From Zygnema cylindricum (Eukaryota > Streptophyta > Zygnematophyceae > Zygnematales > Zygnemataceae), in the NCBI GenBank assembly GCA_037447655.1, contig JBBHKE010001405.1:1-64000 (forward strand): a DNA stretch of 64,000 bases, in the 5' to 3' direction. The notes below the pieces were generated by a model. The model made no database searches, was not told the origin of the DNA, and was given only the letters and a program-made list of their open reading frames with translations. Shown here one piece after another: positions 11,427-50,259 of the stretch. Position numbers and translations under genes: made by a program. Numbering within the stretch: position 1 is the stretch's first letter; each line of letters starts with the position of its first letter.

Positions 11427-11462
11427 ATTACCGATTGGTTCTTTTTGAGTGAGTCTTATAAT

Positions 11463-13342: not shown

Positions 13343-13345
13343 TAT

Positions 13346-14947: not shown

Positions 14948-15008
14948 TTCCTAATAAAGAAAGTCTTATCCATCAAATATGGGCACCCTAGAGGGTGGGC
15001 CTATAACC

Positions 15009-16378: not shown

Positions 16379-16642
16379 TTATGACAATATGAATTTTATT
16401 ACAAACTTATATGAAATAAAATTATGTGCAGCACCTGAATCAACCATTACTCTTAACAGTTTTCCATTCACTAAAAACTCAAACTTGATCAAACAATGTC
16501 TTGTGTCATCATTTCTTAGTTGTCCTAACATAGGTCTGTTGTTGAGAATTTCATTAGAAAGATCCTTCAAACTATGCAATGTAATGAGAATCATAAAATA
16601 TTCAACTATCCTAAACTTTCCATTCATTAATTTGCCCTCCAA
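16379..16642 (-). pseudogene. pol: Gypsy aspartic protease remnant
   Basis: LLRVMVDSGAAHNFISYKF is the active-site strand of a Ty3/gypsy retropepsin (D-S-G). The upstream LRNDDTRHCLIKFEFLVNGK is the usual lead-in. The fragment ends at a stop soon after. Confidence 0.8.
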
Positions 16643-16716
16643 AGTTAACTCATTAACTTTTGGATCTGGTTCACTCTACTGAGGACTTTCAGTTAGTCCA
16701 TTGCGTTTCCCACCTC

Positions 16717-16926
16717 TTACGTTTCTTGCTCAGCTAGGTATAATGCAAAAAAAATTTGGAGACCTTTATTGACATCGACTGTTTTAGCAGAACTTTTATC
16801 TTTACTGGCGTTAGCGTAATGATATGGATCTCCGCATTTGAAACAAGTGACTTTCTTTTTGGGTTTTGTGCACCCCCTATTGAAATGTTCGTTCTCTCCA
16901 CAGTTATAACAATTTATCTCTTTCAA
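16717..16926 (-). pseudogene. gag: Gypsy nucleocapsid with two zinc knuckles
   Basis: CYNCGENEHFNRGC is a full CCHC knuckle. CFKCGDPYHYANA is a second knuckle lacking its last Cys. The order relative to gag and protease is that of Ty3/gypsy elements. Confidence 0.8.
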
Positions 16927-17176
16927 TTGTGCACAATCAAATGCTCAATGACCCTTTTTTTGATAGATAGTGCATGTGAATATGATAAGATTAGGTTATT
17001 GAGCATTAATGCTTCGTTTTAGAATTTTAATGTATCCCCCTCTATTGTTAAATTTCTCTTTGCATTAACACTTGTCCACCTCTCTAATTTACCATGAAGA
17101 TACTATACCCATCCACCAAACCCGGATTTAGACCTTCCGCAATTTCCTCCGACACCACTCTCATACTTCATTCAAA

Positions 17177-21835: not shown

Positions 21836-21932
21836 ATGGCTGCCACCACGCTCATCGCGACACTGCTTATCTTAGCTTGCCACGTGGCAATCACCATGGG
21901 AGATTACTTCGGACCCATGCCGGAGCCAGACA
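21836..21932 (+). CDS. Gene 1 exon 1: start codon and signal peptide
   Basis: The ATG lies in a good plant context (gccATGGC). It opens 32 codons beginning MAATTLIATLLILACHVAIT, a short n-region followed by a hydrophobic core typical of a secretory signal peptide. Cleavage is likely just before the GDYFGP segment. The exon ends in phase 1 at a GTACGT donor. Reading on past the donor runs into low-complexity intron sequence. The chosen acceptor of exon 2 restores the frame exactly. Confidence 0.8.
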
Positions 21933-24900
21933 GTACGTTTCCCCCTCCCTTTGACTTTCCTAGTTTCTTTTCCCCCCTTCCTTCTTTTTGTGCAATACTT
22001 TTCTTCACACGTGTGAAACATCGCTCTGATTCGATCCTTGGAATCGTCGGCCAATTCGGCTGCTGCAGAGTCGACCCTGGAGGCGGTAAAGGCGGCCGTC
22101 GCGAATAAGGGGAACTTTCCGGAGATCGTATGCGGATATAATTTCAATTGCGACAAGTCCGGTCGCGTGTACATGATGTGAGTGATTATCGCCGCGTGCC
22201 ATTCTCTGATTCTTAAGATACGCACTGAATCTTCGCACTAAATTTTCGCACTAGATTTTCGCACTAAATTTTCGCACTAAATCTCCGCACAGAATCTACG
22301 AACTGTATCTAGGCACTGAATCTCTGCACAGAATCTACGCACTGAATCGAGGCACTGATTCTACGCACTGAATCTCGAGTTTTCATTTCATACGGAATCG
22401 AGCTTGAATTTCGTATTGAATCGAACTTGGATTTCATACGGAAATTTCGCACTTTATTTTATTTCTTAGGCTGCGTAAACTCTGCTGCGATGTGTATTCA
22501 GAGCTATGCTTGGGCTGGCGAGGCTTAGAGGAGGGGGAGGGGGGAAGGAGAGGGGGACGGAAGAGGAGGAGAGGAGGAAGAGGGGGAAGGGAGGAGGGAA
22601 TGGAAGTGGGGGGGAGGAGGGGGGAGGGGGAAAAAAAGATTTTCTTTCAAATGGGAGGGGGAGAAGACATCTCCTTTGATATTAAGGCAGAGGTACAGAT
22701 ACATGTATGGATTTATAAAAGAGGGAAGGGAAATGTGATGGGAAAAGAGACGGAACGAGGAATATAAGAGAGGGAGGGAGGAGGAGGAGGGGGAGGGAAA
22801 CCGAGGGGGAAAGGTGGGATTCAGGGGAAGGAGGGGAAGAGGAGGAAAGGGGAAATAAAGGATCTCGTTAAGGGAGGGAGGGGAGGGATTGAAGAGAAAG
22901 GGAAAGGTGAAAGAGGGGAACGAGGGGGGGCCCGGGGGAGAGAATGAAGGATCTTGTTAAGAGAGGGAGGGGAGGTTGAGGAAAAGAAAGGCAGGAGTTT
23001 GGGGGACCAAGGAATGTGTATGGAGGGGCAGGGAGAAGGGGAGTAGGCGAGGGGAGGAGAATAGGGTGTTTGGTCATGAGAGGAAGTGGAGATGGGGGAG
23101 AAGAGGAGGTGGAGGAACAAGGGACCATTTTTAGGAGAGAGAGGTGGGGGGGAAAGTTTGACGGGGGAGAGGGAAAAGGCCAAGGGATCTCGCTAAGGAA
23201 AGGAGGGGGTAGAAGGAGGTGGAGAAAGGGGGGGAAGAGGATAACGAAAAGTGGGGGGAAGAGGAGGAAGTAGGGGGTGGGGGGAAGAGAATAAACGATC
23301 TACTAGGAGAGAAGGGGTGAGGGGAAAGGGAAAAGGGGGTAGGTCGGGGGAGGAGGAAACTTGCTAAAGAGGCAGAGAGGAGGATCTGGGGGGAAAAGAA
23401 TAAGGGGTCTCTTCAAGAGAGGAAGCGGAGATGGGAGGAGGGGAGGAGGGGGGGAGGTAAGGGAACAAGGGAACTTATTAAGGGAAGAGAGCGGAAAAAA
23501 AAACGTCGTGGTGGAGAATGACAGATATCGTTTAGAGAGGGAGATGTGGGAGGGATCGATGTGGGAGAACAATGGAACTTGTTCGGAGAGGGAGATAAGA
23601 GAGGGGAAAAATGAGAGAACGGGGGGGGGGGATAGACACGTTGGAATCCTTTAATGCCACTCTCCTTAAGGTCTTTACATTTTATTTACGCTGCATGTTT
23701 CTCTTCTTATGCCTGTCACAATACTTTTTCATTTTTCTATTAGATTTGTTTCTGTTCTTTCCCGTTGTCATGGCTTTGGTTCATTTTCTCTTTCCTTCGA
23801 AATGGCTTCGAATTGCTTTTTTAAAGCGTCAAGTCCTACACATTTCAGAATACCGTAACCTCTAATAGGTATTGGGCACCACCCACCAGTCAAGTTTGAC
23901 AGCGCAAATTATTTGTACTGGATATTTGCGGCCACTCATGCTACCGATCATAATAAATCTGGAAATATTTATCCCGCAAAAGCTCTCCTATCGATGAAGC
24001 ATCTATGGATGTTGTAACGATTGTCGAGAAGGTTTCCTTAGTCGATTAGATTCGCTAGGAATAATAAGCCAAAGTCTATTTAATCTTAGCTGTTTTTATC
24101 AAAGAAACTTACCCCATTCGCGACGGCATAGCAAATACAATTGCCAAGGTATCAGATGCGCTCCCCGACGTCTACTTTGTTGAAAAAGTTCCTCCATTTG
24201 CAAGGTAGTTAGTAATGGTTTTTGTATGGAATATTATACAAATAAACTTTTGTGAAATAAAAGAAGGTTATGCTCAATCACTCACATAATATCTTGTCCG
24301 TAAACTAAATAAAAAAAAATATATATATATTTTTAATTAAAATGAAACTATATATGGTCTAAATTAGAGATATCGTGTGCGGAGCTGGACATAAAATGAG
24401 CTCAAACACACGACGAGTTTCACCAAGATCGGTGTACATTTCAATCCCTACACCATAGGGTCACGCGCTCCTCATATTTTGATTGTAATTTTTGTTGGTG
24501 ATCTGATTCTTCTAAGATAATCTTGCTCTTGTTGTCGAGGTCAAGCTCATATTCCAATAGGCTCATATAAGGGTGCTAGAATTTATCCAGGTATTGAAGT
24601 TCTTCATGACCGGTTTTTAGAAAACTTTTGAGGGTGGGATTTTGCCATGAACATTTATATACTAACAATATGGTAAAGTTTGTAATAGCTTCGAGCTCCC
24701 TTGCCACTAACCTTTTTGAGGCTGACTTCAAATGCACCGCTGCAACATATTCTTTCCCCTTCCCCCAAACTTTGTCACTCTATAGTGGATAGCCTCATAT
24801 ATGTTATGCAGTAGTTGACTTGAATTTTTTGTCTTTGTTACTATCTTTGTCAATGACTTGATCCCCCTTGGTGGAAGTCGCTATCTCATTGTCGACTGCC

Positions 24901-27900
24901 GCGAAATAACTTATATTTACGCGATATTGGGGAGTTATATTGCTGTCCCGTGGACTCAATTTTTTTGTAGTTTGTCCTCTCGCACTTCCTTATCTAGTCA
25001 AGGAAATAATATTAATAACTTATACAATGGTTTTTCACGATTTCTTTCTCTTCTAGCTTTACCCATTTGAATGATAATGTCAAACTCACCTCGAGCCACA
25101 ATTGATATTTTCTCATCTTCTCTCCATGCTCTCTAACACTCAATTGTGTGGATTCTTATTTGTGTTATACCGGCCTAAGTATTGCTACGACCGTCATCTA
25201 CATTACATGGTTCTTTAATTCTCTGTTTCCCTAAAATAATCGAGGTAAATTATACCTTATGTTCCATGTTCGCTTGGTCAAGGGTCGATAGTTGATGCAC
25301 ATACATCGGGAGCCGCCTTTTTTTGATAAAGAAAATATCAATGTCTCATTCGAGCTACCAATCCATTATCACTACCCTATCTGTGAAAGAGAGGATGTAT
25401 ACAACGTCAATATAACACAAAGCTCAGTTGTACGTTAATTAAAATGGTGGTTCCCCCCAGCTTTGTAAGCCATGGTACAAATAAATTTATATACAGGCGT
25501 ACTTTCTAGAAGTTGTTTAAAAAAACATCAACATATCCTTCCGAAATTTGTTTGAAAATTTATCGAGAGCTGTTTGCGCTCACTATCAAAGTTTATGACG
25601 GAATATACATAAATTTCGTGGAGACCATGAAATGCTATTATCATACAATTTTTCGAGAGTTATACCTTAACCATCAAAACATATTTACACTGGGGCCTTT
25701 CAGCTTTACAAGATGTAAGGCCCATAGATGTGAAATGTTCTATTTAGGAACACGTATACCTGTCTCACCACTCTAAGTGAGAACAAAATACTCTCTCACG
25801 ATATGCAACGTCTTTGGTAAATATTTCAACTTCCTTGAAAACCTGGTGCCCAAAACTAGGTCTTTCGCGCTTATGATGTAATTAACCTATATAGGTTCGA
25901 TACTTACCGACTTCTAAATGTGCGAGCCCAAATTTTAATTATGTAAGAAAACGTTCGTTGCTAAACATCACATATGACGTGTAAACGCACTACAATATCC
26001 ATTCCTTTCACTAATGTTGTGGAAAACAAGTATTTCTCAAACACACATGCCAAAACTACTTTCAACTCGCAAGTGATCAAATTTTACTTTGTTGACTAGT
26101 CCAACAAAGATAAATACTAAATTTGGTAAAATAAAGGATAAAGGTGCTAGTTTTGGCGATTTGAGCGATATCAAAACGGACGATTTTATGATAATCTCGG
26201 TCCCATCATGGAATTAACATCTTTAATGCAACCCATATTTGCACTATCTTTGGTTCGTTCCTTTTCTTCTTTATAATAGTTTAGGCTTTTTCTTTCCCAA
26301 CCTCTGCTCCTCCACCTTCTACTCAATCACATCCACCAAGAATGAGGGACCTTGAGGAGATTGAAGGGAGAGCGAGGAGGGGAAGTGGGAAAAGGGACCT
26401 TGTTGGCAGAGAGAGGGGGGAGGGCAAGGTGGGGGGGGGAAGCGAGATCTCGTTAGGAGAGGAGGGACGATGAAGGTCGGGAGGGAGGGGGGAGTGGGAA
26501 ACGCTGAAAGGAGGGAGCTGTTAGGAGAAGGAGGGGGAAGGGAGAAGGGAGGGGAGAGTACAAAGGATCTTATTAGGAGAGGGTAAGGGTAAGAGGAGGG
26601 GGAGGGAGGAGGAACGGAGGGAGGGGATAGAGGTGGGAGGACAGAGGTGGGGATAAAATAATCCGTGAGGGAATGAGAGAAGGGAGAGAATTAGGGAACT
26701 CTTTCATCGATCTGTGGGGTGGGTTTCTTTTCCTATGTATCACATAGAAAAGCGCGGGGGGGGAGGGGAGAGGAAATAGGAATAGAATGAGGTAAACCGT
26801 TCAACGCGCTGGGTATTTAAGAGTGGAGGGGGAGGGAGGGGTAGGGAGGGGGAGATGGTGAGTGAATTCGTTCGACCACAAATAGGAGGCGGTGAGAATA
26901 TCTCTTTGGGGAGGAGTGCGTGGAAAAGGGGGTGTGGGGCAAGGGGGGGGGGCGTTGTGAGGAAGGGAGGGACGGGAGTGAGGGATCTCGTTTAACGACC
27001 GATTGGTGGGGGCGCAGATCTCTTATCTATTTTGGACTGGGAGGCAGCATTGCGCCGGAGATTGGCAACCTCACACGACTAACAGGGCTGTGAGTAAAAA
27101 AATGGGAGAGGAGAGCATCTTATGCGCAAAAAAGAAAGGAAAGCAAATAAGTAAAATTTATAACAATGAAAAAAGGAAAAACCAAGTATTGTAGTTTAGG
27201 TTCGATTTTTATTGTAGTCTTTTTTGTTTTCGGTCATCGGCAAGGAAGAGGTGTGGGAGGTGTTGCAAATAGGGTGGGGTGCATTTTTGATTCGGATTTT
27301 TGGTAATGCTAGAATGATTTCCCTTTTTAGGAACAAAAAACAAAAAAGTTCCGAGCATGTATATGTTTCCATTTTCTGTTTTGAAAATGAACGTGGCCAA
27401 ATCCATTCGTAACAACTAAAATTTCATGCTATTTGTTTTTAATAATTTGATAAAATATCTTTATGTATAAATTTTCCATTCTTAGATTTTTTCCCTTAGT
27501 GTTGATCTTGTAGCCTATACCAAATCGGAGGAAATTTGGGGGGAGGAGGGGGGCTACGAATGTTCCGTGTCACAGAGTTCTAACTGCTAACCAATTGAGT
27601 GGAAGCATTCCATCCTCTATCAGTCAGCTGAGATCCCTCGAAATCTTGTAAGGCATATGACACTATATCTTGTAAGGCTATGGTCCTCATGGAAAGTGTA
27701 CAGTGAATGGCTATGGTTTGGGATGAAGAGTTGATAAAGAGAAAGGGAGTTGTGAAAACAATTTAATGAATAAATATAGCAATGACAGAAAAACTGTTAA
27801 TAATAATAACAATAATATTAATAATAATATTAATAATAATGTAATAATAACAATAAAAACATGTATGTTATAGGAATTATCGATAACAATATTATAATGA

Positions 27901-30900
27901 ATCATAAATATAAATATGAATAAAATTGAATAATATTTATAAAAAAAATATTAAAATGCATAATTATTAGTGTGAAAACAATGATATGAATAATTTAATT
28001 TATTTTTATAATTCTAGTATAAAATATTAAAAATCATAATAACAGACTGTAGAACGAATTAGCAAAAAGAACCCAAAGAGTAAGCAATGTAATACATAAT
28101 AAAATACAATAGGTAACAAAAGCAATTAATCGTCCAAATAAATGGGAATTAACATTAATATATATTAACAGTAAAAAATAATAATACAAAACACAAATTT
28201 AAAAATCATAAAAGTATTAAATGTTAATTAAGTAGTAACTATTATTTTTAATCATAATAGAACATAACTTTAAATAATAAAAAATGATTTATGATATTTA
28301 TCTTTAAAATTTCGAAAAACAGCAAATAATAACAATTAAGCAATAATTGCAGATTATAATAATAATAAAAAATATAAATAATTAGTAAAAATCATGACAA
28401 TAACTAATATGCATAATAATCAGTCATAACAGTAGAAAATATCTATTGATAATAAAAGATAATAGAAATTATATATAGTATTCGGAAAAAGTAGATCATA
28501 ATTTGTTGAAAGTAACGTCTTAATTTTCAACGAAGGAACAATAAGAAAATCTGATGGTTTTTTTATTGTTGATAAAAAGGATTTTTTCTTTGGTTTTTTT
28601 TGCCAAGTTGTACTTTCCTTCTATACAATTCACGTTTTTTTTGTCTTTGTGTAAAAAAATGTAAAATTGGAATATGAAGTGATGGATGGAGGAAAAGGGA
28701 GGGGTGAGGGGGGGGGGGGGGGGAAGGAATTGTGATTGAAATGGATGTGGTAAGGGAACGTTGCATTTAACAATTGTGTAATTCCCTTCTCTATTTGCCT
28801 TTGTTTTTTAAATTGGTTTTGTGAATTATAGTTTTTCCATAGATAAAAGGGAAAAAGAGGGGAGGGGAGGACTGAAAAAAACAATTTTTTGTAATATTGA
28901 ATTTTGTATATTTTTTGTTTTATCCAAATCTTACTGGTTTTTTTTCTTTTCTAACTGGGTTGCGGTTTATATTTGTTGACTTCATTTTTGCACTACATAA
29001 AGTAGAGGGAAGACAAAGGGGAAGGTGGGGAAGAGGTCAAATATAACACTACGTGTACATCTATTTATCATGTATGAGGGAGAGATTAGACCGGTATGTA
29101 CGTGTAGTTTTGAATTCTAACCTGATTGCAACTAGAGTTACTTTAGTTTTTTTTTTGGGTGTTTTGTGATTCATGTGTGATATTTTCTGTTGTCACTGTG
29201 GTTGTAGAATCGTTATGAGATAATTTGGATTGAAAAAATTGACTGTGGAATGTAAAACGAAACAAATAAGTACAATTTATGTGGACATATTATATGTATG
29301 TGAATTACGTTACAAATTTAACTCGATGTTATAATTATCAATATTTCGTTCAAATGTGGTGGCTAACGAAAACCAAGCAGACAAATTCATTGGGAACTCT
29401 TTCTCAATTGTTTTTTGTGTACAACCTTATACCCAAGCTGGGGGGTGTGAGGGGATGCCTGCCGTTCTAGACGTTTGGAAGCCAACCAGTTGAGTGGAAA
29501 CATTCCGTCATCAATCGGTCAAATGACATCTCTTAAATCCTTGTAAGAAGCCTAACTTTACAGTTGTGTCATACAAGATTGGTTGGAATGAAAAATCATG
29601 AATTCATAAGTTAGAAAAATTACTAAATGGTAAATTTTAAAAATCGTAATTCTTTAACTTTTAGGCTTAGAACAACTATTTCAAAATATAAGTTGTCGTT
29701 TTTGTTTTTTTTTTTTTCTTATCAAAAATATAAAAAACAATGATTTTCGTGATGACGACGATGATGTTGATCATGATGACGACGACAATAATAATGATGA
29801 TTTCGAGTTTACGTCATTATTGTTACTGTGCTATATTTTGTCTAAGTTGGAAATATCGAGTGACATAATGTAAGAAAGTGGGGTCGACAGGGGAGATTGA
29901 GAGGAAAGTTATGAAATTAAATGTGATTATAGATTTCAAGGCCAACTCTATAATAAAAAAACAGTTCAAAACTATTTTTGTATTTTTATTTAGAATGTGA
30001 TGGTTGATAAAAACGCTTTCAATGTATTTACTAAGGTTTCACACTCGAATGTTATGGTTTATAACCTCGGAGCCTATTGTAACTTGGGAGGCACTTGGCC
30101 CGAGGACGGGGATTGGTGGGGTGGGAATACCGTTTGTATAGATACCTACGAACCAACCAGTTGAGTGGAAGCATTCCATCATCCATCGGCCAACTTGCGT
30201 CTCTCGAGGACCTGTAAGACATATAACACTATATCTATGTTGCAAATCGAAAGCGTACCTTATAGTGTGTGATGGAATTTGAAGAAAAATATAATAATAA
30301 ATAAGAATGAAAATTGTAATTAATAAATAATAATATGAAGAAAATTTACAAAATAACAATTTACAGGACATAAGTAAACTTATTATATAGCATGAAACTT
30401 GGTTTTTATACTTAATATATATGATTGAAAATATACAACAAATCCTGAATACTTTTCTTTTTTTTACGAAAGATTTTCTTTCGTGATGTCAAGCTCTCTT
30501 CTTTGTGTAACAAAAGGAGAGGAAAGTGTATGTGAAAAAATGCCTTATGTGTGGGAATTCACCTTTTCTGTTTTGAAAATTTGTTATACCTGTTTTAATT
30601 CGGAGACACTTGGGCGGGTGGTGGGTGGGGTTTTGCTGGTGTGGGCATGCACGGAATTGCAGAGAGCTAAGTGAAAACAACTTGAATGGAAGTATTCCGT
30701 CATCTTTCGGTGATTTAAAATCCCTCAGAAACTTGTAAGACACATAAGACTTTGGCTATATTTTCGGCCAAAAGTACACCCTAACTGGTTATGGTTTTAT
30801 TTGGAGGAAAAAAAAAGTACGTGGGAAGGGATCACGAAAAAAAAATATTATTACATAAAATTAACATTAATAATAGCCAGTAGTAACAAAAAGAATGTAG

Positions 30901-36900: not shown

Positions 36901-39900
36901 CGGTGGGTTGGGCCTTTCTTGTATCATAGAAATCTTTGTGGAAACCGATTGAATGGAAGCATTCCGTCGTCCATTAAGAAACTAACATCCCTCCATTCCT
37001 TGTAAGACACGTGACACAATGGCTATCGTAGTCATAAAAAGTGAAGTATAAATGGTTATGTTTTGTGATAGAGAAAGATGTGAGTGGAAATGGAGGGACG
37101 AAAACTACCATAGTAAGTAGTAATAAAAACAACAAATGATTAATAATAATGTTAAGTAAATATGACTAAGTGATGATAAATTGTGGATGATGAGTTTATA
37201 ATATTTATTATTTTACAACTCATTTAAATTGGAAATTTTAAAGGGGTCATAGGGGAAAGGAGAGGGGTTAGTCCAGGTTATGTGGGGTGGCAAGGGAGGT
37301 ATACGAACAAATTTGATTTTGTGGAAATTTTACATTTTGCATTCATAATTTTTAACCATCCATAATCAGAACTTGACGGTTAGTTTAGTGCTATTTCTTT
37401 TGAAACTGTTTGAAATGGAATATATGTACATAACGAATTGTGGGAAAAAGTGAGAGGAGCTCTAAAAAAAAAAAATATGTTAGTACACATATTTTTGAGC
37501 GGGAGAGAGGGTAGAATGACCAGTAATTGACTTAGAAACTTTACATTTTTTCAATTTTTGTGAAGGAATTTAAAATTCTACAAGAGAGAAAATTCAGGGT
37601 GTTAGTTTTTTTGGGAAATTTTTTAAGTTTTTCTTTTTGCAATCAGTGGTTAGTTATTCTTGCATTTTCAAATTGAAAACAAAAATAGGTTTTGTCCCAA
37701 AGTCGGTTAATGTTTCGGAAAACAGATAGAATTATTCACATATTACGCCGTGCATAGTTGTTAGCGTGTTTGCATTTTCTAACACGTAAACCAACCTTCA
37801 TTTGTCCACACTATTTGGATTGCTAATATTGGATTGCAACGGTTTCTACGGTTGTACGGAAAGTTGAAATCCTCGTCTTTCCACTGGCGTTTCACGAGTA
37901 AAAGTTTTAAGTGGAAAAGGACAATAATGTTTATAAAGATACACAGAGGATTGTTCTATAACAATAGTATACGGGACACGTGACCATAATACAGATGATT
38001 TATAAAAAACAAAAATTCCTAAAATGAATATGTTTTATAATAGCAAAAATGAAAGATTGAATAAAACAACATATCTATTTTTAATGTATATAAAGACGCC
38101 ACATACACTATAATGCTAAATCATCAAGTTATATTTTCACAATAAGTGCACATTTATGCATTTATCAAAATTCTTTAATGAAAATAAATAAACACCGAAA
38201 TTCGTGCTAATTGTAAAAACGTAATGCATAGCATTTCGAAGAGTTTATGTTACACAAATCGAGTAATTTTTTATGATATAATCACTGTTAACCAATATGG
38301 TTTATAAGAAATAAACTATGCCTTATAAACTAGTTTGGCATATTTCAATTTATTAATGGGACTATTGAGTCGAGTCGACCAGTCACCACAAAATTTCACT
38401 TTAATTTATTTTTATCAAATTTTTAAGTTTGATGGAGAGTGGATAACTTTTGAATATAATTACAAATCTTACTACCAATTTATTTAGGTTTATTAGCTTA
38501 TAGACATAACTGGCTGGTGGTGTGGGGGCTTGCGGGTGGAGGTGCCCGATGATACAGAGGCTTGTGTAACAACCAGTTCAGTGGAAGCATTCCATCGTTC
38601 ATTGGTCATCTGAAACTCCTCCAGTATTTGTAAGACATTGAACACTATGGTTATTTTAGGGTTTGAAAGTGTATTCTAATTATTTAAAAAAAAAGATTTT
38701 CATCGCACCATAGTCTGAACGAATTAAAAGTCGTCATAAAGTTGAGACTTAAGTAAGACACTGAACACTATGGTTATGTAACGCACTGAAAGTGTACTCT
38801 AACTTTTTGCACCACAGTCTGTACGAATTAAAAGTCGTCATAAAGTTGAGACTTCACACAATTGTTTATTATATTTTTTTAGAATTTTTATTTTGATAAC
38901 CAAAAAACAAATTTTCGTTTATTTTCCAAATGTCTAAAAAGTATCAGGGAGAATAATTATAATAAATTTAGATATAATAATACAAATTCTAATAGTAATG
39001 ATCATCACAATACCAATAATAAGCAATAAATTTGAATAATTTGAATAATAATGGTACTACTGAAAATAATTAAAGTAAAAAGTATTGAATCACAACACGT
39101 AATAGTAATTCACAGTGATGTACAGTGCAAATAACATTAAAAAATTTCAATGAAACGTATCAAATAATAATAATACTTCAAAATTGATTTAAATTATAAC
39201 CATTAAAAGAAGATAATAACTATGAATGATATGTAACAAATAAATACAAATAAATAAAACCTAAAAAATAAGCAAAAAACACTGATTTTCAAAATCCAAG
39301 TTGTAAACAAGAAAAAACAAATAATAAGAGAAAAAAAAATGTATATATATATATTAAAGCATATTCAAATTTATTAGCAGTTGAATAAAAATAATGTAAA
39401 ACAACAATGAATAGCAAATAAATAAATAAAAAGATGATAAGCAATAAACATTAAATAGTGCTAAATTGAAATTTAGAACTTTTAATAAATTAAAATGTGT
39501 GTTTGATAATACATAGTACATAAAAAAAAACATTAATACATAATTCATAATAATAAAAGTGAACAAATTTTTTTTTTTCATTTAACCATTAATGTCGATA
39601 TTATAATTTTTTTTCTTTATGTTTAATTTTTTTGTACAGTCGATTTTTCTTGTCTTTTTATGGCATATGGCTTACAACTATTGAAAATGAAGGGATATGA
39701 GGGGGGAAGAGGGGAGGAAAGGGGATTGTGATTGAATCGATTTGGTGTGAAAATTTCGCATTTACCAATTTTTTATTTGAGCCCTTATTTAGTTAGCAGT
39801 CTTTTTTTTTCATTATTTTTCGGATTACTATTTTTAACTGAGGGAGGAAAGGGGTGGGGGGAATCTTGGGAGAAGACATGTGGCCTTAAAACATTGAATT

Positions 39901-42900
39901 TTGGAAGAAAAACAAATTTCTCCAATTCTAGCTGCTGGTTTTGACTATTAACTACATATACTTATTTACTTTTTTAACCATCTGAAATTGAATAACCTGT
40001 GTGAAACAAAGGAGTAAAAGAGATCAGGATAGGAGGCAAGGGATAAGATATCAATATGTATAAACGTTTATTATTCATATGCATTTACATGTACGTGGGA
40101 GTAATTCAACTAGCAGGTTCTTTTTGTTTGAAATTTTACATGAACTTTTCAATTTTACAATCTCTTTTTTAGTATCCTATGTGAAATTATTTTTTTATTT
40201 GGATTGCTATTTATCTTTGGATATTATATCTATAAAGGTAAAATCCAGTAGTTACAAGAAAAGATTGATTCATGCTAATCTTTTATCAAATAATTTATGG
40301 TGTTATAGTGGATAAAACCTTTTAAACTTATTTATTGAGAGTTTACACTCATTTTCTTTTGGTTTATAACCTTGTAGCCCTCACTAATTTGGAGGGACTT
40401 AGGCCTTGGGGGAGGCTGTGGGGGGAATGGGTTGATGGGTTGGGGATGTGCGGTATCACAGGACTGTTTATAACAACCAGTTGAGTGGAATTATTCCATC
40501 ATCCATTGGTCAACTGACATCTCTCACAGATTTGTAAGAAACATAACACTATGGTTATATTGCGCATAAAAAATGCACTCTTATTTATTATGGTTTATTG
40601 GAAGTATAATATTTATAAATTTAAAATGTAAAACTCTTTTATGAATTATAAGTTGATGTGTGATTTATAAGTTGATAGTCGCCGCCGAGATTTGAAATAA
40701 AGATAATGATAACAACGATGACTAGTAAAGGTCCTACAAAGGCTAGTATTTTTTAAGAAATAATACTAAATGTAGCAATAATAATCATAATATTTTGTAT
40801 CAATAACAAATCAATCTCATAAAGATTAATAAATAATTGAAAGTAATAAACTACAATGGGTGTTAATAATACTAACTTATAATACTTAAGTAATACACTT
40901 AATATAGATAAAATTAATGTTAACAAATTATTATCTAGAGATTTTTGATGAGGTGGATGGAACTCAATATTTATTTTGACTATTTTTTTTGTTATCATTT
41001 AAGAAGGATTTGGTTTTCTATCCTAAAATTAGGTTTTTTTATTTATCTTTAACCAAATGAAATCATGGAAAATCATGTGAAGTAATGGAGGAAGAGGGGG
41101 TGGCTTGTGGAGAGACATAGATTGAAATCGATAATGTCTGTAAACATAACATTAAAATTTGTGGGAAAGGAAGCATTGTAGTGTCAAATCACTGTCGTTT
41201 GCAATTTTTTTTTCCTTCAGCTGTTTCTTTTTTTTTAATGATTTTCTATTTTAAAGTATATGCTATACATAATAATTTTCTTTTAGGCATTTAAAATAAA
41301 CATATGTGAATCAGAAGAGGTACGGGAAAATGGAGGTGAGGCGAGATATAGGATGTAACGAGACTTTACCTGTTATTATGAATATGCATATGGGGGGTTT
41401 CTATCCATCGTTTGTTTATTTCTTCTTTTTTTTACATTTTTTGTATAGTGTTAATACATATATAGATGTTGTTACCTATACCTGATATATTTTTTAAATT
41501 TTAAAATTTGTAGATTGATTTTTTTGAGTCCAAGTTTTTTTTTTAAATATATCATCTAGGCTAAGAAGTTGAGTGACAAAATGTAGGAAAGTGGGAGTGA
41601 TGAACGAATTGGAGTTTTGTGGGACATTGAGCGTGCAAAAGTAAAATCTATCAATAACAGTATAAAACCTATTCAAAATGATGTCCATTGATTTATTTTG
41701 AAGTGCGATAACAGATATTGACTTTTTACATGTGTATATTACAATTAACAATATGTTTTTGGTTTAAAACCTTGGAGCCCATATAACCTTGGAGCAAAAT
41801 TTAAGGCAATTTTTCTGGGGTATTTGGTGCGGTGGGGATGCTTGGTTCACAGATGGCTATCTAACAACCAGTTGAGTGGAAGTATTCCATCATCTATCGG
41901 TCAACTGACAAACCTCACAAATTTGTAAGTTACAAAAAGTTATAGCTATATCATGTATCAAAAATGCCTCTCAAAAGTTTATCTTTTGTGATGGAGAACA
42001 ATGGAGAGGGAGCGATAGGCTTTGAGGTAGTTGGCTGATAGTGTGGTTGGTGGGGGACGAATACTTTCTGTGACAGAGTTTTATCAAGCAACCAATTGAG
42101 TGGAAGTGTTCCATCGTCCATTGTTCATTTGAAATCTCTCCTATACTTGTAAGACACGTAACACTAATGTTGTTTTATGTATCCAGAATGTAATCTAAAA
42201 GGCTATTGTATGTCGAGAGAAGTGTTTATCTGTAAAAATCAACATTTGTTTTGTTGAGCGTTGAAACATATATATTTTTTTGTTTTTGTTATTTTTTTAT
42301 CTATTTACCATTTTGAAATCAAATGATTAAGTAAAAAATTAAATACTAGCTATAATAGTGACGCCATTAATAAAAATGAAGAGAATACATATTTTTATGA
42401 TAATGATAATGATAGATAAAATAACGTTAATGACAATTTTAATATTAATGATGATAATAGGACTAACAATAATAATGGTCGTAATAGTAGTAATCCTGCT
42501 AATAATAATAGCAACAAAAATAATAACATATAGAAGGAGAGGCGATAAAGGGCCAAATTAAGAAAAATAGGGGGCAAAAAATATAAAGTCGAAAGAAGAC
42601 AAATTGTGAATAGAGACAAAAAGGAATGCACAAAATGTTTGTTGTGAATATTTTCCGAAGCTAAGATAATATTTTTACTGGAAAGCAAATTTCCTTCAAG
42701 AGAAAAAGGAAAAGGAAAACGAGAAATCGCGTACAAGATTTTGAAGATACATGAAGTAAAGGTGTGACCAAGAAGGTGAAACTAAACTAGGTAACCGACA
42801 AATCTTATGCAGTTGTAACCAAACAAGGTGAAACAAATCTAGGTAACTGACACAAAAATTCTTCGGTTACCATGTGAAAAAATGCATCTAAACACGGCAA

Positions 42901-45900
42901 AAATATTATAATATTCCCGAGGGGTTTCTTCCATTCTCTAAAACGTACATACGAAGAAGAAACAGAAAAGCACAGAACGTTAAATTAATCTACACTTTGA
43001 CTTTCGTTGTGGACATTGATAAAGATTCGTGATTTTAAACATACGTTTAATACGGAAAATCCAATTATCCCCTTCAATTGAAGCATGGCCTGCGAACCTT
43101 TCAAGTAGGTTGTTTATCGCACAGACAGTGTCGTACAATGACTTGGATACCGATGGGCATCATGGAAGAGATCGTGATACAATTTTCTGGCGGAATTTCC
43201 GTCATATTCTCCAGATCTTAGGAATGCGCTTCGATTCCGAAAATGAACAAATGGGAAACATATGGCTTGAATACATACCACACCTTAAAGGGTATTTTGT
43301 CGATAAGAGCGGGTGTGGAATATCTGTTTGGCACGTAGGAGGACTTTTATAAAACCTCGGCCGGAAGAAGAGGTAAAGAGGCAAAATAGAGCATGGAACG
43401 AGACATGTCAAAAAGTGTGCGGTTCAGCCTTTCAACGTCACCATTTGTTTGGGGATTGTGGGAAGAATTTCTCCGTGCGTTAGTCTATCTTGACTAAGTA
43501 AGGTGGGCAAGATTATAATTGATCGTTTTTGCAAACGTCTTAACAAGAAAGGTAATTTGTTGAAGATTGTGATAATCATATCTTCACCACGTACGCTATA
43601 ATGAAGACATTTCAATTGAACTATAAGCAATTAGACCTTTTGAGATAACGTTAGCATGCTACCCGTTATTTATTTTTTGATCGAAATAGATTGCCTACGC
43701 AATTAGAGTCGTTGCGGCCAAGTGTTCGTTTTGTAAACACTACACAAAAGCGGCCAGGTCTCATGAGACGTTTTTGGGCCATGAAATAAATTTTGAAGCG
43801 AGCTATCTTATGAGAAGACAAGACGCGTTTTTATGGTCGTAATATTCCTCCTTCCATGCAATGATGGCAAGTCTTTTGGTGTCATAAATGGCTTCCCTTT
43901 CTACAGGTATGAAATGAATGGGGACATCACTAATGATGGGAAACAAAATTAAAAAAAAAAATAAGATGTTGGATTTGAAAAATCCAAGTACAAAAGTGTT
44001 TTTTTTGGAATACAAGAGAGATTTTTTTCACAACTGATGCTTTGGGCTGAAAACGTGAAAAAGGTGAAGCCATAAGAGGTCAAAAAGGAATAAAACACAA
44101 AAAGGATGAGGCCAGAAAAAGAAAGCAAAAAGGAATTAGTAGTTGGCTAAGGTACTCTTTGTTACAAGGAGAGGAAACAATTTTGAGGGAAAAAGGAAAA
44201 GCAAAACGAAAAGCCGCGTATATGGTTTTTGAGATACATCTAGTAAACGTGACACCAAGAAGGTGAAAGAAATCTACCTAACCGGCACATCTAGTAAAAG
44301 TGTGACGAAGTAATGCCAAACTAATCTAGGTAGCGAGCACAAAAAGAGTCAAATCACCGTGTGAGGAAAGGCATTCCAGTACAAAAAATAGATTCCTGAA
44401 GGTTCTCGAGGGAAATATTTTTTTCTATGGAAGGTATCTACGGAAAATGTAAGAAAGTACGGAACTCCAAATTAAAGTATTGGACTTAGGACTTAGCGTT
44501 GAGGACTAACATAAATAGAGGTAGATTAGATATAGGTCCAATAGGAATTTCAATTAGGACAACAACAATAATACTACCAGTTATGATATCAGCAATAATG
44601 TTATTAAAGACAACTATATAACAATTATAATCGCAGATAATTAGCAACAATGGAAATATCAACAACAACAATATTAATAGTAAGTTGTAGCAATAGTAAT
44701 CACAAAACATCAAAATAACAACCAATTTCATAGTAAATATTAGTAGCAAACCTGTGTAAATCGACAAATAGATATGAATCAATAATAAATAAACAAGAAA
44801 ACTAATTTTAATACAAAATAAGACCTATGGTTATTGACTTGGGATAACAAATTACAGGAAGAATCAATGCGGTGTGGGAATATTAGATTTATTGATTGTG
44901 TCTTTTACTTCAATTGTTCAGCGGACTTTTTTTTTAATTTGTTTGTAGATTTTTTTTTTTTTGTGATGGAATAAAGGGGGAGGGTTAGGGGAAGGGATCG
45001 TGGCACTAGCTATGTGGTGTGGGAAAATTTAAATTTCACAGATTTTATTTATTTCCTCTATGTTTTAGCGTGTCTTGTGATTTAAATGGTTTTACAGAGT
45101 ATTGTTCTTTTGTCTATTTTTTTGTTTAACTATTGCCCATTAATTTTGTGTACAGCACGGTGATGGTTTATTCGAAAAAATATTCCATCTCAATTCTTAG
45201 TTTGACATTTACATTTCTCTAATAGATGTTTTTTTTTATGTGGTAACCGCTTATAATCTAATACATTTTTTTTCACTTCTCCATTTAAAATTTATGATTG
45301 ATTGTTTTAAACGTAACGGTTTGAGGTTTTTTCAAGGTATTGAGAGGACTGATTAACGGTTGAGAGCTTTTGAGTAGAAAATTTAAAACATTCCTACCAC
45401 AGGTCAAGAACATCAGTCACATACATTGTCTCATATTCCTCTTAGAATTCTCAGAACAAAGTTTAAATGTCACATAATTAGTGTGCATTAAATATTTTTT
45501 AAGCAAAGCCTCTATTCAAATTTTGTGCTATAGAAGGTCTAATGTATACTTCTTTATAACTTGTTGTACAAGAAAGGTTCATGCCGTCATTAAAATTTTC
45601 ATTTATTGCACCTCTTGTCATGGACTTTGATGGCTGGCCAAGTTTTCGTGTTTTTCAATGGCGGACCATGTTTAGTCCTATTTCAAACAACTACTTCGTT
45701 GGGCCAATTATCAAAGGCAATGGACACCCAACCTGTCAAGAGTTGCGTACTAACTGCCTCTTTGGCACAAGCCTTCCATCCGGGTGCAAATCCAAGTACC
45801 AGCGAACAAAAAGCGAATGTGAAGCGTTTTGCAATGCGACCCTACCAGGAGGGCCTTGTGGGGGAGGCGGTATTTGCTCCAATGGTACGGATGGTGTATC

Positions 45901-48108
45901 ACGTACATGTGCATGCAATCAAGGATACAACAATCGGGTGAACAAGTTTATTTGCAAATGTAGGTCCCACTTCACTAAGGTGCACGTGAGTTTTTTCGTA
46001 AAGGAAATATAGCAAAGGGTTGGTAAACTGATTTCTTTATATTATCATGCTCGTTGGTTAACCATAAGGTGTTCATGGTGTGTCAAGGTGCAAGTAAATT
46101 TAGTTTACAAACAATTATCATCGTAAAATAATTTTTATAAGCAGAGATTTTGAATGTATTGAATGACATAACCATATTTGCTCTACTGGAATTTTATTTT
46201 CGGGACTTGTTATTAAAACATAATCATCCACATGGGCAAATACTTTTTGCGATTTTAAATTTTCTTTTATATTCTTAGGCCAAGCGACAAAATTTTGAAA
46301 ACATGTGATGTACAAAATTTTGAAGCCTTTTTTAGTTCCTCTAACATTGATGACAAAAAATAAATAAAACTTCAAAAAAGTAGTTTAGGCTTACCCTTAA
46401 ACACTTGCACTCAACATTTTTCGATTCACTATGCGAATCGGTCTGTTTTGCACCAAGCCATATCTCCTCTATCTAATAGAAAAAATGCAAATTCTGGTGA
46501 CGTGATAAAAACAAATGAAAGTTGTGACAGAAAAATCATATTTGTTCCACAAAATGTTGGAAAATTATGGCTTTTCAAAGTGACTAATCACAAATAGACA
46601 TTGACTGTGGACAAACAATCGGACAACAAAAAAAGCTGAATTTTGACAGAGATAAATTCGACAAGAACAGTGATCTAACAACAAAACAGAAATATCAATT
46701 ATAAAATATTTTTGGCGTAGAAATTTATGTGGATTTTACTTTTTGGCGGATGTTTCCATGTGATCACCATACCAAAATTGGTTATTACTCATTTTGAGCA
46801 TGCCAGCCTTCACTTTATATAATAACTGTTGAAAACTCATTGTTTTGCCAACGTCACTGTACGCAAACTCGTGTTACTGAGTGAATCGGCAGCTCGGTTG
46901 GGTTCGCGTTAGCTGATTAAAATCAGTTCAGCGAGTGTGTTAAAGCATCGGTTCATTTCATAAGGTGTAATGTTATTTAGTGCCTCGGACGTGCTACTTT
47001 GGTTTTGGTCAAGCGTAGGTTTCGTTCCGGTGAAGGAATGTCTATGGTGGAAGTGTCTGCTCTCTTGTTGTTGTTTTCTCTCTTGTTCTTGTTTTGTGAA
47101 TGCCTGTACTTTTTGTTGGAATTCTAACATTCTTGTGATAGTGGAGAGTGTCCCATTAAAGACTTGCCTTGACAATCACCAAAATCATTGAGAGTCCGGA
47201 GCTAGTGAGTAAACAATCATTTTAATATACATGTATTGGTTAAAAGTTTCCGTTTGTGTATTTCTGCCCACTCTGTATGCTTTGCACTATGTTATCAAGC
47301 CTATCAATTGGTATATTGCATTTGAACAAAACGGAAGTGTATTTTGGGAAGGTACTAAATTTGGGTACCTTTTGAAATGAAACAATAAACATATGTTTCT
47401 TAAAAAGTTCCCACAAGTACAAGCTTATGGTAATTCTATCTGAGAATACTATATTTATTTGCATTTGGAAAAAGTTATATGCTTGAAATATCTAAAGCCA
47501 TGAGGTCAAAAGAATTGTCGGTCTTAAATATCTAAAATTTCCAAAAGAGAATATACAGAAAAAAAAAATGACATTTTTTTATTCAAGCCATCCTTTCCAC
47601 AACCCACCCCCCAATAATCCCATCAGCTTCACTCACATCTCTCTTCAAATTTGCCATCAACAGCTTTTTTTTCCCCTCTCCTTCAATTTTCACTCTCACT
47701 TTCACCAAGTATATTTTTTTCCAATATTCAACCTCAACTCTTCTACCTTGGCCTACAGCTATATGTGATAAATGAAATTAAATTCAAAACAGGAAATTGT
47801 CTACTACCTTCGAATTATACCCTTACATTCCTATCTTCTATGAAATCGACTTTTGTAGAACACATTGTTTGTTTTGAGGTCAAAAGCACCATGATTGACA
47901 ACGGAGCTTCTTCTCACGTTTTTTTGCAGTGTTGAAATCGCCACCACCTCATCGGTCCTCTCCTCCTCTCGCTCGTCGTCCACCATCCCCACGTCCTCAT
48001 CCCCCCCCTCCTCCCTCTCCTCCACACTCCGCACCTCCTCGTCCCGCCCCTCGTTCCCCTCCACCAAAATACCCACCTCCTCGTCGCCCCCTTCCCCGTT
48101 CTTGTTAA
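21836..48108 (+). CDS. Secreted LRR / EGF-like / proline-rich (LRX-like) protein, 15 exons (gene 1)
   Basis: Spliced gene reconstructed by eye. Exons: 21836-21932, 22069-22177, 27018-27089, 27576-27647, 29471-29542, 30142-30213, 30663-30734, 35735-35806, 36930-37001, 38558-38629, 40462-40533, 41853-41924, 42077-42148, 45676-45959, 47930-48108. Lengths sum to 1461 nt, every junction is GT-AG, and phases agree throughout (1, then 2 at each LRR junction, then 1). Predicted 486 residues: signal peptide about 1-21, LRR cap to about 68, eleven 24-residue LRRs plus a half repeat (about 69-345), Cys-rich EGF-like region (about 350-427), Pro-rich tail (428-486). No transmembrane segment or kinase is seen, so a secreted cell-wall protein is inferred. 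The layout recalls LRR-extensins, but those are usually intron-poor and lack an EGF-like module. A short alternative end by read-through after exon 14 stops at 46012. No clear TATA box was identified. Function is inferred from architecture only. Confidence 0.85.
22069..22177 (+). CDS. Gene 1 exon 2: LRR N-terminal cap
   Basis: Acceptor CTGCAG, donor GTGAGT. In frame from exon 1 it reads STLEAVKAAVANKG, then a two-cysteine motif (IVCGYNFNCDKSGRVYM). This matches the plant LRRNT pattern in which a helix is followed by a Cys pair, a D-x-x-GRV motif and the first LRR strand. The exon is 109 nt and ends in phase 2, the phase needed by all following LRR exons. Confidence 0.8.
22221..22376 (+). repeat. 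13-nt tandem repeat, 12 copies
   Basis: Unit CGCACTGAATCTC with variants, twelve consecutive copies without indels, starting 44 nt after the exon 2 donor of gene 1. Degenerate related sequence continues to about 22450. Confidence 0.85.
22505..23640 (+). repeat. Polypurine (GGA-rich) tract in gene 1 intron 2
   Basis: Over 1.1 kb is nearly all G and A on the plus strand. Minus-strand reading frames here are Pro/Ser-rich, but this follows from composition and is not taken as coding. Confidence 0.85.
25195..25335 (-). pseudogene. pol: Gypsy RT fragment in gene 1 intron 2
   Basis: The minus strand reads KKGGSRCMCINYRPLTK followed by RYNLPRL. This matches the gypsy RT block KKDGSxRxCIDYRxLN...YPLPR. 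Surrounding sequence (about 24.3-25.8 kb) shows no further clear motif and is broken by stops. Confidence 0.55.
26336..27000 (+). repeat. Second polypurine tract in gene 1 intron 2
   Basis: GGGAGGA-rich sequence directly precedes LRR exon 3 and ends about 20 nt before its acceptor. Confidence 0.8.
27018..27089 (+). CDS. Gene 1 exon 3: first LRR (72 nt)
   Basis: CGCAG acceptor, GTGAGT donor, exactly 72 nt, phase 2-2. Joined to exon 2 it reads GRVYMI-SLIYFGLGGSIAPE, then IGNLTRLTGL. It lacks the NQLSG core of later repeats and resembles the usual first LRR after the cap. It is the most divergent repeat, so it was probably not part of the recent exon amplification. Confidence 0.85.
27576..27647 (+). 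CDS. Gene 1 exon 4: LRR (72 nt)
   Basis: GTCACAG acceptor, GTAAGG donor, 72 nt, phase 2-2. Reads [24 protein letters not shown]; the variable positions are V, TA and EI. Confidence 0.9.
29471..29542 (+). CDS. Gene 1 exon 5: LRR (72 nt)
   Basis: TTCTAG acceptor, GTAAGA donor, 72 nt, phase 2-2. Reads RLEA-NQLSGNIPSSIGQMTSL-KS-L. Confidence 0.9.
30142..30213 (+). CDS. Gene 1 exon 6: LRR (72 nt)
   Basis: GTATAG acceptor, GTAAGA donor, 72 nt, phase 2-2. Reads [24 protein letters not shown]. Confidence 0.9.
30663..30734 (+). CDS. Gene 1 exon 7: LRR (72 nt)
   Basis: TTGCAG acceptor, GTAAGA donor, 72 nt, phase 2-2. Reads ELSE-NNLNGSIPSSFGDLKSL-RN-L. Its scaffold differs more from the consensus (NNLNG, FGDLK) than those of its neighbours. 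Confidence 0.88.
33000..33231 (-). repeat. LTR-like dispersed repeat, minus orientation, with purine tract
   Basis: Reads TGTTGTTTTGAAAAG on the minus strand and is preceded by ATTTTCGGGGGAG (33232-33244), a good polypurine tract for a copia 3' LTR. The far end was not located; it would lie below 33000. Confidence 0.5.
33292..33455 (+). repeat. Tandem repeats of the same CTATGCTGCGCT family
   Basis: GCTATGCTGCGCT...GACATCGCAG...GCAGCGTGTACT is repeated about 2.5 times. It is related, inverted, to the repeats at 337-458. Confidence 0.75.
33965..35290 (+). pseudogene. Copia gag-protease-preintegrase remnant in gene 1 intron 7
   Basis: A 98-codon frame (33965-34261) with a gag-like position comes first. 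Near 34650 the frame GWIMDSGSLTYM gives a protease DSG motif. LHDVLYRPDFKRNLFWTS lies near 34830. HYDNLKKIIKDGLIEGVKLA (35084 on) is a GAG-pre-integrase core. Many stops interrupt it. It is on the same strand as gene 1 and inside its 5-kb intron. Confidence 0.65.
35735..35806 (+). CDS. Gene 1 exon 8: LRR (72 nt)
   Basis: GTCACAG acceptor, GTGAGA donor, 72 nt, phase 2-2. Reads FLDS-NQLSGGIPSSIQKLTSL-YS-L. It follows the largest intron of the gene (5000 nt), which carries retroelement debris. Confidence 0.9.
36930..37001 (+). CDS. Gene 1 exon 9: LRR (72 nt)
   Basis: TCATAG acceptor, GTAAGA donor, 72 nt, phase 2-2. Reads NLCG-NRLNGSIPSSIKKLTSL-HS-L; a cysteine lies on the predicted concave face. 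Confidence 0.88.
38558..38629 (+). CDS. Gene 1 exon 10: LRR (72 nt)
   Basis: GATACAG acceptor, GTAAGA donor, 72 nt, phase 2-2. Reads GLCN-NQFSGSIPSFIGHLKLL-QY-L. Confidence 0.88.
38628..38855 (+). repeat. Tandem duplication of a donor-side segment in gene 1 intron 10
   Basis: GTAAGACATTGAACACTATGG...CGTCATAAAGTTGAGACTT occurs twice in a row (second copy about 38753-38855). A second donor-like GTAAGA lies without an exon before it. Confidence 0.8.
40462..40533 (+). CDS. Gene 1 exon 11: LRR (72 nt)
   Basis: ATCACAG acceptor, GTAAGA donor, 72 nt, phase 2-2. It starts with G rather than A, so the split codon is TTG, still Leu. Reads [24 protein letters not shown]. Confidence 0.9.
41853..41924 (+). 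CDS. Gene 1 exon 12: LRR (72 nt)
   Basis: TTCACAG acceptor, GTAAGT donor, 72 nt, phase 2-2. Reads [24 protein letters not shown]. Confidence 0.9.
42077..42148 (+). CDS. Gene 1 exon 13: LRR (72 nt)
   Basis: GTGACAG acceptor, GTAAGA donor, 72 nt, phase 2-2. Reads VLSS-NQLSGSVPSSIVHLKSL-LY-L. The preceding intron is only 152 nt, the shortest of the LRR introns. Confidence 0.9.
42590..42910 (+). repeat. Direct repeat in gene 1 intron 13, copy A
   Basis: Shares ordered blocks with 44110-44405: AAAAAGGAAAAG-AAAACGA, GAGATACAT or AAGATACAT, CCAAGAAGGTGAAA and CTAGGTAACCGACA-like sequence. Confidence 0.6.
43029..43352 (+). CDS. Unrecognised 107-codon ORF inside gene 1 intron 13
   Basis: The frame has a balanced, protein-like composition (NDLDTDGHHGRDRDTIFWRN, EYIPHLKGYFVDKSGCG). 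It is more complex than its AT-rich surroundings. It is not a 72-nt LRR module and has no obvious splice link to gene 1. Possibly part of an inserted element. Confidence 0.25.
   Translation: MILNIRLIRKIQLSPSIEAWPANLSSRLFIAQTVSYNDLDTDGHHGRDRDTIFWRNFRHILQILGMRFDSENEQMGNIWLEYIPHLKGYFVDKSGCGISVWHVGGLL
44110..44405 (+). repeat. Direct repeat in gene 1 intron 13, copy B
   Basis: Diverged second copy of 42590-42910, about 1.5 kb downstream. Confidence 0.6.
45676..45959 (+). CDS. Gene 1 exon 14: last half LRR and Cys-rich EGF-like module
   Basis: Acceptor GTTTAG. It opens in phase 2 with PISNNYFVGPI, a final half LRR. A Cys-rich linker (TCQELRTNC) follows, then CEAFCNATLPGGPC, CGGGGIC and TCACNQGYNN. 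The spacing C-x5-C-x10-C-x-C-x-x-GY is EGF-like. NAT and SNGT are possible N-glycosylation sites. The donor GTAGGT leaves phase 1, the same phase as the equivalent exon of the convergent paralog. Without splicing, the frame runs 17 codons further and stops at 46012. Confidence 0.85.
46118..46375 (-). pseudogene. Possible RT-like fragment in gene 1 intron 14
   Basis: The minus-strand frame contains CFQNFVAWPKN and VFAHVDDYVLITSPENK, resembling the VDD active-site block of a retroelement RT. No other RT block was found, so the assignment is weak. Confidence 0.3.
47930..48108 (+). CDS. Gene 1 exon 15: proline-rich extensin-like tail and stop
   Basis: A TTTTTTTGCAG acceptor precedes it. Entered in phase 1 it gives LKSPPPHRSSPPLARRPPS, then a long Pro/Ser/Arg run, KYPPPRRPLPRSC and a TAA stop. 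SPPP blocks and a lone Tyr resemble extensin/HRGP motifs, which are hydroxylated, glycosylated and wall-linked in plants. The alternative frame (VEIATTSS...) is Ser/Thr-rich. The Pro frame is preferred because the paralog has the same splice phase and a much longer Pro-rich frame. Confidence 0.72.
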
Positions 48109-49759: not shown

Positions 49760-50259
49760 TCAAGGAGTGGGAGGACGGGCGGAACGAGGAGGTAAGGATG
49801 ATGGAGGAGGGGAAGGAGGGTTGCGAGGAGGAGGCGGGAATAGTGGACGATGTGAGCCAGGAATGGAACGACGAGGCGGGTATTTTGGAGGAGAAGGAGG
49901 AAGGGGAAGACGAGGAGGGAGGAATTTTGGAGGAGGAGAGCGACGAGTTAATGATGGAGGGGGAGAGGAAGGAGGGGAGTGACGAGGAGGCTGGAATGGT
50001 GGACGAAAGGAGCGAGGGGGGGGGAAACGAGGAGGCGGAAATTGTGGAGGAGAAGGGTGGGGAGGTGGGGATTGTGCACGAGAAGAGGGACGAGGGGGAC
50101 GAGGAAGTGGAAATGGTGGTGGAGGTGAGAGAGTAGGGGGAGGCCGAGGAGGTGGTGATGATGGAGGAGTAGAGACAAAGGGTGGGGGACTAGAAGGTGG
50201 GGATGGTGGAAGGCGAAAGGGAGGAGGGGAGGAAGGAGGGGGCGATTGTGGTTGCAACA
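49760..50259 (-). CDS. Gene 2 terminal exon: long proline-rich extensin-like tail
   Basis: The TTTGTAG acceptor enters in phase 1, as in gene 1. It gives [18 protein letters not shown] followed by about 150 more residues of SPPP, PPPR, PPKF and PPSPP blocks, ending ARPPTP and a stop. There are about 166 residues against 59 in gene 1, so the tails differ mainly by repeat expansion. The plus strand of this exon is a GGA-rich purine tract. Pro-rich HRGP-like composition suggests wall anchoring (inference). Confidence 0.78.

Follow-up and report, generated by a model that had tools for sequence, protein, structure and literature searches.

Secreted-type leucine-rich-repeat genes built from single-repeat 72-nt exons form a very large family in a green-lineage genome

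Several known protein systems resemble parts of the locus described here. LRX/PEX proteins have the order signal peptide, about eleven leucine-rich repeats (LRRs), Cys-rich module and SPPP-rich wall tail, and their LRR regions are not known to be split by introns. Lamprey VLRs form a modular LRR repertoire. Brown-algal ROCO genes are described as having single-LRR exons of 72 bp with phase-2 boundaries, splice variants, and sites under positive selection on the concave face (PMC11378527, which cites Zambounis et al. 2012 on LRR-ROCO). The same paper reports 15 non-ROCO sequences with such 72-bp phase-2 exons in Saccharina japonica, and phase-2 single-LRR exons in vertebrate gonadotrophin receptors. 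Plant LRR-RLPs and LRR-RLKs carry a 24-residue LRR, LxxLxLxxNxLxGxIPxx (PMC10834447 and PMC5296948).

We analysed a 64,000-nt stretch of DNA, hereafter the window. Fifteen exons at 21836-48108 on the plus strand were chained into a 1461-nt frame encoding 486 amino acids (Table 1). The original prediction had assembled these scattered LRR exons into one gene, and all of its parts were found where it had placed them. Both predicted lengths were correct, although the frame, said to close without a stop, ends in a proper TAA. Coding sequence had been put at less than 6 percent of the span; we computed 5.56 percent. The GC content was 0.47 in the CDS versus 0.35 in the introns, which ranged from 136 to 5000 bases. 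All 14 introns were GT-AG, and the splice and profile scan showed that all 11 LRR exons were exactly 72 nt long and phase 2-2, so that the gene fits the structural class of single-LRR 72-nt phase-2 exons at 11 of 11. The predicted phase-2 ends did not extend to the first and last introns, which are phase 1. Similarly, the count of eleven one-repeat exons held, but the first is a cap-type repeat that lacks the NxLxG core, and ten LRRs follow this cap.

Table 1. Exons of the plus-strand gene and of its inverted minus-strand paralogue. Positions beyond 64,000 continue the window numbering.
Feature	Position	Strand	Basis or remark
Exon 1, start codon and predicted signal peptide	21836..21932	+	donor GTACGT, phase 1; hydropathy peak at residue 1; counterpart exons in minus gene and at C2011
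Exon 2, N-terminal cap (STLEAVKAAV..CGYNFNCDKSGRVY)	22069..22177	+	counterpart exons in minus gene and at C2011
LRR exon 1, cap-type repeat, 72 nt, phase 2-2	27018..27089	+	splice and profile scan
LRR exon 2, 72 nt, phase 2-2	27576..27647	+	splice and profile scan
LRR exon 3, 72 nt, phase 2-2	29471..29542	+	splice and profile scan
LRR exon 4, 72 nt, phase 2-2	30142..30213	+	splice and profile scan
LRR exon 5, 72 nt, phase 2-2	30663..30734	+	splice and profile scan
LRR exon 6, 72 nt, phase 2-2	35735..35806	+	splice and profile scan
LRR exon 7, 72 nt, phase 2-2	36930..37001	+	splice and profile scan
LRR exon 8, 72 nt, phase 2-2	38558..38629	+	splice and profile scan
LRR exon 9, 72 nt, phase 2-2	40462..40533	+	splice and profile scan
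LRR exon 10, 72 nt, phase 2-2	41853..41924	+	splice and profile scan
LRR exon 11, 72 nt, phase 2-2	42077..42148	+	splice and profile scan
C-terminal half-repeat and Cys-rich/EGF-like exon, 284 nt, acceptor phase 2, donor phase 1	45676..45959	+	150/150 scored genomic matches
Terminal Pro-rich (SPPP) exon, TAA stop	47930..48108	+	gene model, tail composition
Minus gene exon 1	73246-73144	-	past window
Minus gene exon 2	73015-72889	-	past window
Minus gene cap LRR	72205-72134	-	past window
Minus gene LRR	65929-65858	-	past window
Minus gene LRR, 69 nt	65576-65508	-	past window
Minus gene LRR	64739-64668	-	past window
Minus gene LRR exon, 72 nt	63183..63254	-	splice and profile scan; earlier exons past window
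Minus gene LRR exon, 72 nt	55795..55866	-	splice and profile scan
Minus gene LRR exon, 72 nt	53467..53538	-	splice and profile scan
Minus gene Cys-rich/EGF-like exon, 278 nt	51982..52259	-	6-nt in-frame gap relative to plus copy
Minus gene terminal Pro-rich exon, 500 nt, TGA stop	49760..50259	-	comparison with plus gene

A second intact gene with the same exon types lies tail to tail with the plus gene on the minus strand. Completed with 40 kb of the contig past the window, it has a CDS of 1509 nt that encodes 502 amino acids without an inner stop. Six LRRs follow its cap, compared with ten in the plus gene. Six of its seven LRR exons are 72 nt long; the 69-nt exon at 65576-65508 is one codon short and still in frame. 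The Cys/EGF exons of the two genes share 63 percent amino-acid identity with acceptor and donor phases kept, and the two Pro-rich exons start at the same codon. A third gene was found on contig C2011, which carries three Cys/EGF exons about 20 kb apart. Between two of them we traced a signal-peptide exon, a cap exon, a cap LRR, three LRRs and a Cys/EGF exon; this was done exon by exon with the frame not joined, and a diverged LRR might be overlooked. The LRRs found after the cap thus number ten, six and three in the three paralogues, and a change in module number is seen only by this outcome. In a 9-kb stretch of contig C845, four modules lie upstream of the module nearest the Cys exon. Because exons, phases and order recur in the inverted paralogue and, exon by exon, in the third gene, the plus gene as modelled is almost certainly real.

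We searched the whole 352.8-Mb assembly (2689 contigs, the window included) with the Cys/EGF exon. The plus copy gave 461 first-look candidates, and all 150 that were scored matched (E 2.9e-61 to 2.8e-29); an inner stop was absent from 140 and present in 10. The minus copy gave 454 candidates, and again 150 of 150 scored ones matched. Combined, the two queries revealed at least 168 distinct places on 126 contigs. Thirty loci were fetched, among them the window's own, and a regular expression parsed 25 of them. In all 25 the AG stood at the same codon, and an in-phase GT followed at +284 nt in 24 and at +287 in one. The GT after the exon at L035 lacks an ordinary donor consensus. Of the 29 other loci, each fetched with about 1.5 kb to either side, 17 contained one or more 72-nt LRR modules, and no module was seen in this stretch at the remaining 12. 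The plus gene therefore belongs to a very large family in this genome. Its architecture had been called unusual; the split one-LRR-exon design was borne out by two complete gene models and, exon by exon, by the third, but within the genome it is not a one-off.

A cluster of related genes of a different form was seen at C2124:208001-278000 of the same assembly (G000, L013-L019). They are intron-poor: several LRRs share one exon and lead into a similar Cys cap, and an adjoining open frame holds Pro-rich sequence and another block of LRRs. The likeness was judged by eye. Among three further loci chosen from LRR matches, L020 held only the LRR/Pro part of this one-exon form, and no family member was found by regular expression in L021 and L022.

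The protein ends were examined by several searches. A Pfam scan of the whole plus protein reported LRR families only, with no kinase domain and no ROC-COR GTPase domain. No transmembrane-like window was found outside the signal peptide in either protein; among 19-residue windows that begin past residue 40, hydropathy peaks at 1.36 (plus) and 0.99 (minus). The label EGF-like for the Cys-rich exon proved weak: EGF-type models lead the Pfam matches of both copies (hEGF, EGF_2 and EGF_Teneurin, E 0.02-0.46), but no match reaches its curated cut-off, and the list also includes EB and DUF7630. The predicted structure of the Cys module had a mean pLDDT of 39.6 and was unusable. We searched residues 333-430 against about 5.8 billion predicted proteins with a method that requires shared 5-residue words and similar length, and among 16 candidates there were 0 matches at E up to 1e-3, in contrast to the at least 168 exon copies in the genome. 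The full Cys pattern was not found by regular expression in 240 fetched proteins, and a looser motif occurred in one of them (P0151, a match from the copia search). A search with the LRR part returns LRR proteins of plants and bacteria by the thousand and does not single out relatives. The last exon, predicted to be extensin-like, is so in composition: the tails of both proteins are basic, 47-48 percent Pro and contain SPPP motifs. The tail is 59 residues long in one of the neighbouring proteins and 166 in the other.

Selection was compared between the two kinds of exon. The Cys/EGF exon is under purifying selection: among 27 copies (26 of the 30 loci and the minus copy; L041, L045, L050 and L051 were unparsed, L045 having an inner stop), 99.7 percent of the 351 pairs had an omega below 1, the median being 0.37, and ten Cys columns were invariant. 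The window's two copies, taken as a pair alone, gave an omega of 0.56. For the LRR exons, we took as concave sites the x positions of xxLxLxx (codons 22, 23, 1, 3 and 4 of 23) and compared them with the remaining codons. The counts were made on non-independent pairs, near saturation, and are no substitute for a codon model; on this basis, pN/pS for all 40 modules was 1.42 (1.20-1.77) at concave sites versus 0.49 at other codons. The 27 modules outside the window gave 1.50 (1.21-2.01) versus 0.61. The 13 window modules alone, a set that leaves out the cap repeat, gave 1.34 versus 0.34, where the bootstrap ranges from two runs, 1.01-2.06 and 0.98-2.19, are borderline. In 23 close module pairs, pN was 0.324 and pS 0.167 at concave sites, compared with 0.063 and 0.118 elsewhere. 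Random sense codons, the control for concave-site counting, gave a ratio of about 1.0. The concave LRR face carries an excess of amino-acid change.

The introns next to the modules were also compared. The downstream flanks (+7..+66) of the window's 13 modules are alike, with an ungapped identity of 0.476 versus about 0.30 further out, and so are about 20 bases upstream of the exon. Between the window and 17 outside modules the same flank gave 0.319, near background, and the outside modules gave 0.336 among themselves. A general intronic element downstream of every LRR exon was ruled out, the likeness being confined to the window's modules. Plain recent local duplication of exon and flank does not explain it either, because the silent distance inside the window (0.477) is no smaller than that between the window and 21 outside modules (0.427). 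Some modules are closest to one in the opposite gene (36930 with 53467, 16 differences). The shared flanks may reflect exon-limited exchange between loci, intron turnover or a constraint on the flanks in this gene pair.

Retroelement pieces have lengthened the introns of both genes. The plus-gene intron 30735-35734 contains copia parts at 34686-35284 (+), where one of two matches is just below the cut-off, and the minus-gene intron 55867-63182 contains copia pieces on the minus strand at 57442-57762 and 60306-60593, the second below the cut-off. Elsewhere in the window, a Copia-type retroelement lies at 10869-14950 (-), with gag, integrase and reverse-transcriptase frames broken by stops. A copia ORF search gave distant matches only, those named being mostly from flowering plants. 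Frames for a retroviral-type aspartyl protease and a CCHC knuckle mark a further retroelement piece at 16382-16944 (-). Degenerate TTTTTAGGG-like tandem repeats, which we take to resemble telomere units, occur at 6873-7028 and 8349-8415. No Rfam match at the gathering threshold and no tRNA match was found within the window, and one scan for viral contigs confirmed none.

Our favoured interpretation is that these loci probably encode LRR proteins that are secreted, bound to the wall and used in recognition, a large family in which the repeat number and the binding face vary by exon modules. An extracellular recognition role is likely. The signal peptide, N-cap, eleven plant-type LRRs and Cys-rich/EGF-like C-cap would together make a secreted recognition protein. 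Its basic SPPP-rich tail may be hydroxyproline-glycosylated and tether the protein to the cell wall or matrix, and the concave face might bind variable ligands, either non-self or partner molecules. Because transmembrane and kinase parts are absent, signalling would presumably go through a partner. Every LRR exon of the plus gene begins and ends in phase 2 and has a length divisible by three, so the gain, loss, exchange or skipping of a module keeps the frame. Frame-neutral exons of this kind could possibly allow alternative splicing, and the splicing of the gene model itself is predicted wholly from comparison. A bolder and rather doubtful extension is that the exon-cassette LRR loci, well over 150 in number, form a combinatorial repertoire in which many binding faces arise through gain, loss and exchange of 72-nt modules and through alternative splicing.

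An alternative is a family of structural glycoproteins of the cell wall, with the LRRs as a scaffold, the Pro-rich tail as the working part and copy number reflecting wall composition. The Pro-rich basic tails with SPPP motifs, the conserved Cys/EGF exon and the absence of a signalling domain all agree with such a family, and it accounts for everything except the concave-face change. There, concave codons outpace silent ones and the rest of the repeat is conserved; the unequal tails of the two neighbours also argue against it. We regard this explanation as unlikely, but as the foremost of the alternatives. Less probable again is a repertoire for mate, gamete or self/non-self recognition, whose ligand would be a molecule of the partner cell, rather than for immunity. 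It agrees just as well with the number of copies, the wall-type tail and the diversified LRR face. From DNA alone this role and immunity cannot be told apart, and nothing points to reproductive expression.

Two further explanations question whether there are working genes at all. The modules and C-terminal exons might have spread with transposable elements as a mostly dead, unexpressed repeat family, as the retroelement pieces in the introns of both genes, the at least 168 dispersed places and the inner stops in 10 of 150 copies could suggest. However, the other 140 copies are open, the median omega is 0.37 (with the stop-bearing L045 among the four unparsed loci), the splice phase is kept in all 25 parsed copies and the two gene models are fully open, which makes this a very improbable account. 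False chaining, in which stretches between AG and GT are open merely by chance, deserves mention because the individual exons are short and the window's plus strand has 187 AG-72-GT blocks. But 13 real blocks (10 on the plus strand and 3 on the minus strand) carry the strict LRR core, and no such block arose when the window was simulated 40 times with a first-order Markov model, one strand per run. The architecture also recurs elsewhere, and the paralogues make this error so unlikely that it is scarcely credible. For the reality of the plus gene, the recurring exons, phases and order are stronger evidence than the chance simulation.

If the preferred reading of a secreted recognition family is right, its one-repeat, frame-neutral exons might give the organism a means of changing which molecules the protein binds. 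If the family is expressed, the green lineage would have a modular recognition repertoire of very large size, and whether frame-neutral LRR cassettes generate receptor diversity would become directly testable. Ordinary ORF finding detects little of such a gene, and for this reason a family of this size may be absent from annotation.

The 72-bp phase-2 exons suggested a brown-algal host, which was ruled out because two LHC frames match green-type LHCII chains. The assembly contains 88 LHC-type matches; four of these loci were fetched, and two frames were searched against the PDB. The top total in both searches was the multi-domain 9vfj LHCI-2 (550 and 504 bits), a score added up over several copies. 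When only single LHCII chains are compared, the first frame scored 460 bits with 8htu/7xqp, presumably from Physcomitrium, ahead of seed-plant chains (up to 434) and green-algal chains (up to 402). The second frame was closest to Lhcb3-type chains (422, 421 and 416 bits versus 378 for the next). These matches point to a green-lineage host, probably a land plant and perhaps a bryophyte. Dense LHCII-type gene arrays were seen on contigs C519 and C2590 of the assembly (G000), with more than 10 matches on C519.

The plus protein resembles LRX (LRR-extensin) proteins in being predicted as secreted, with an N-terminal LRR domain and a C-terminal SP-rich tail. However, the LRX LRR domain is not known to be split by introns, whereas the plus gene has 15 exons. 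A two-sequence profile of the Cys module found no LRX match in the PDB at E up to 10. The one-exon C2124 relative aligns with LRX2 (structure 6qxp) over 115-336, into its Cys cap (E 4.8e-33); with its last LRR and cap alone as the query, the match to LRX2 falls to E 0.0067 (positions 222-299 of 361 in the chain). The introns speak against membership of the LRX family. The Cys module gives mixed evidence, with no LRX match on its own and leading Pfam matches of EGF type, beside the alignment of the C2124 relative into the LRX2 cap. Gonadotrophin receptors and lamprey VLRs differ from this family in their protein ends, and somatic assembly is without evidence here. The plant-type 24-residue LRR is shared with LRR-RLPs and LRR-RLKs, but LRR-RLPs have a C-terminal transmembrane segment, which both proteins lack, and LRR-RLKs have a kinase, which the plus protein lacks.

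A green family of this architecture was not found in print in the accessible portions of the open-licence literature. Single-LRR 72-nt exons are already known, notably from brown-algal ROCO genes; it is the architecture and the family that we did not find described. The brown-algal LRR-ROCO genes share with this family one LRR per 72-bp phase-2 exon and a fast-changing concave face, and PMC11378527 presents them as candidate immune receptors shaped by exon shuffling. Selection was tested there with PAML, and here by counting only. They carry a ROC-COR GTPase, which the plus gene lacks; it has instead a signal peptide, a Cys/EGF-like C-cap and a Pro-rich tail, in a green-lineage genome. By analogy, and with considerable doubt, a combinatorial repertoire of such loci might be a green-plant parallel to the repertoires of shuffled LRRs that have been proposed in brown algae and are known from lamprey VLRs.
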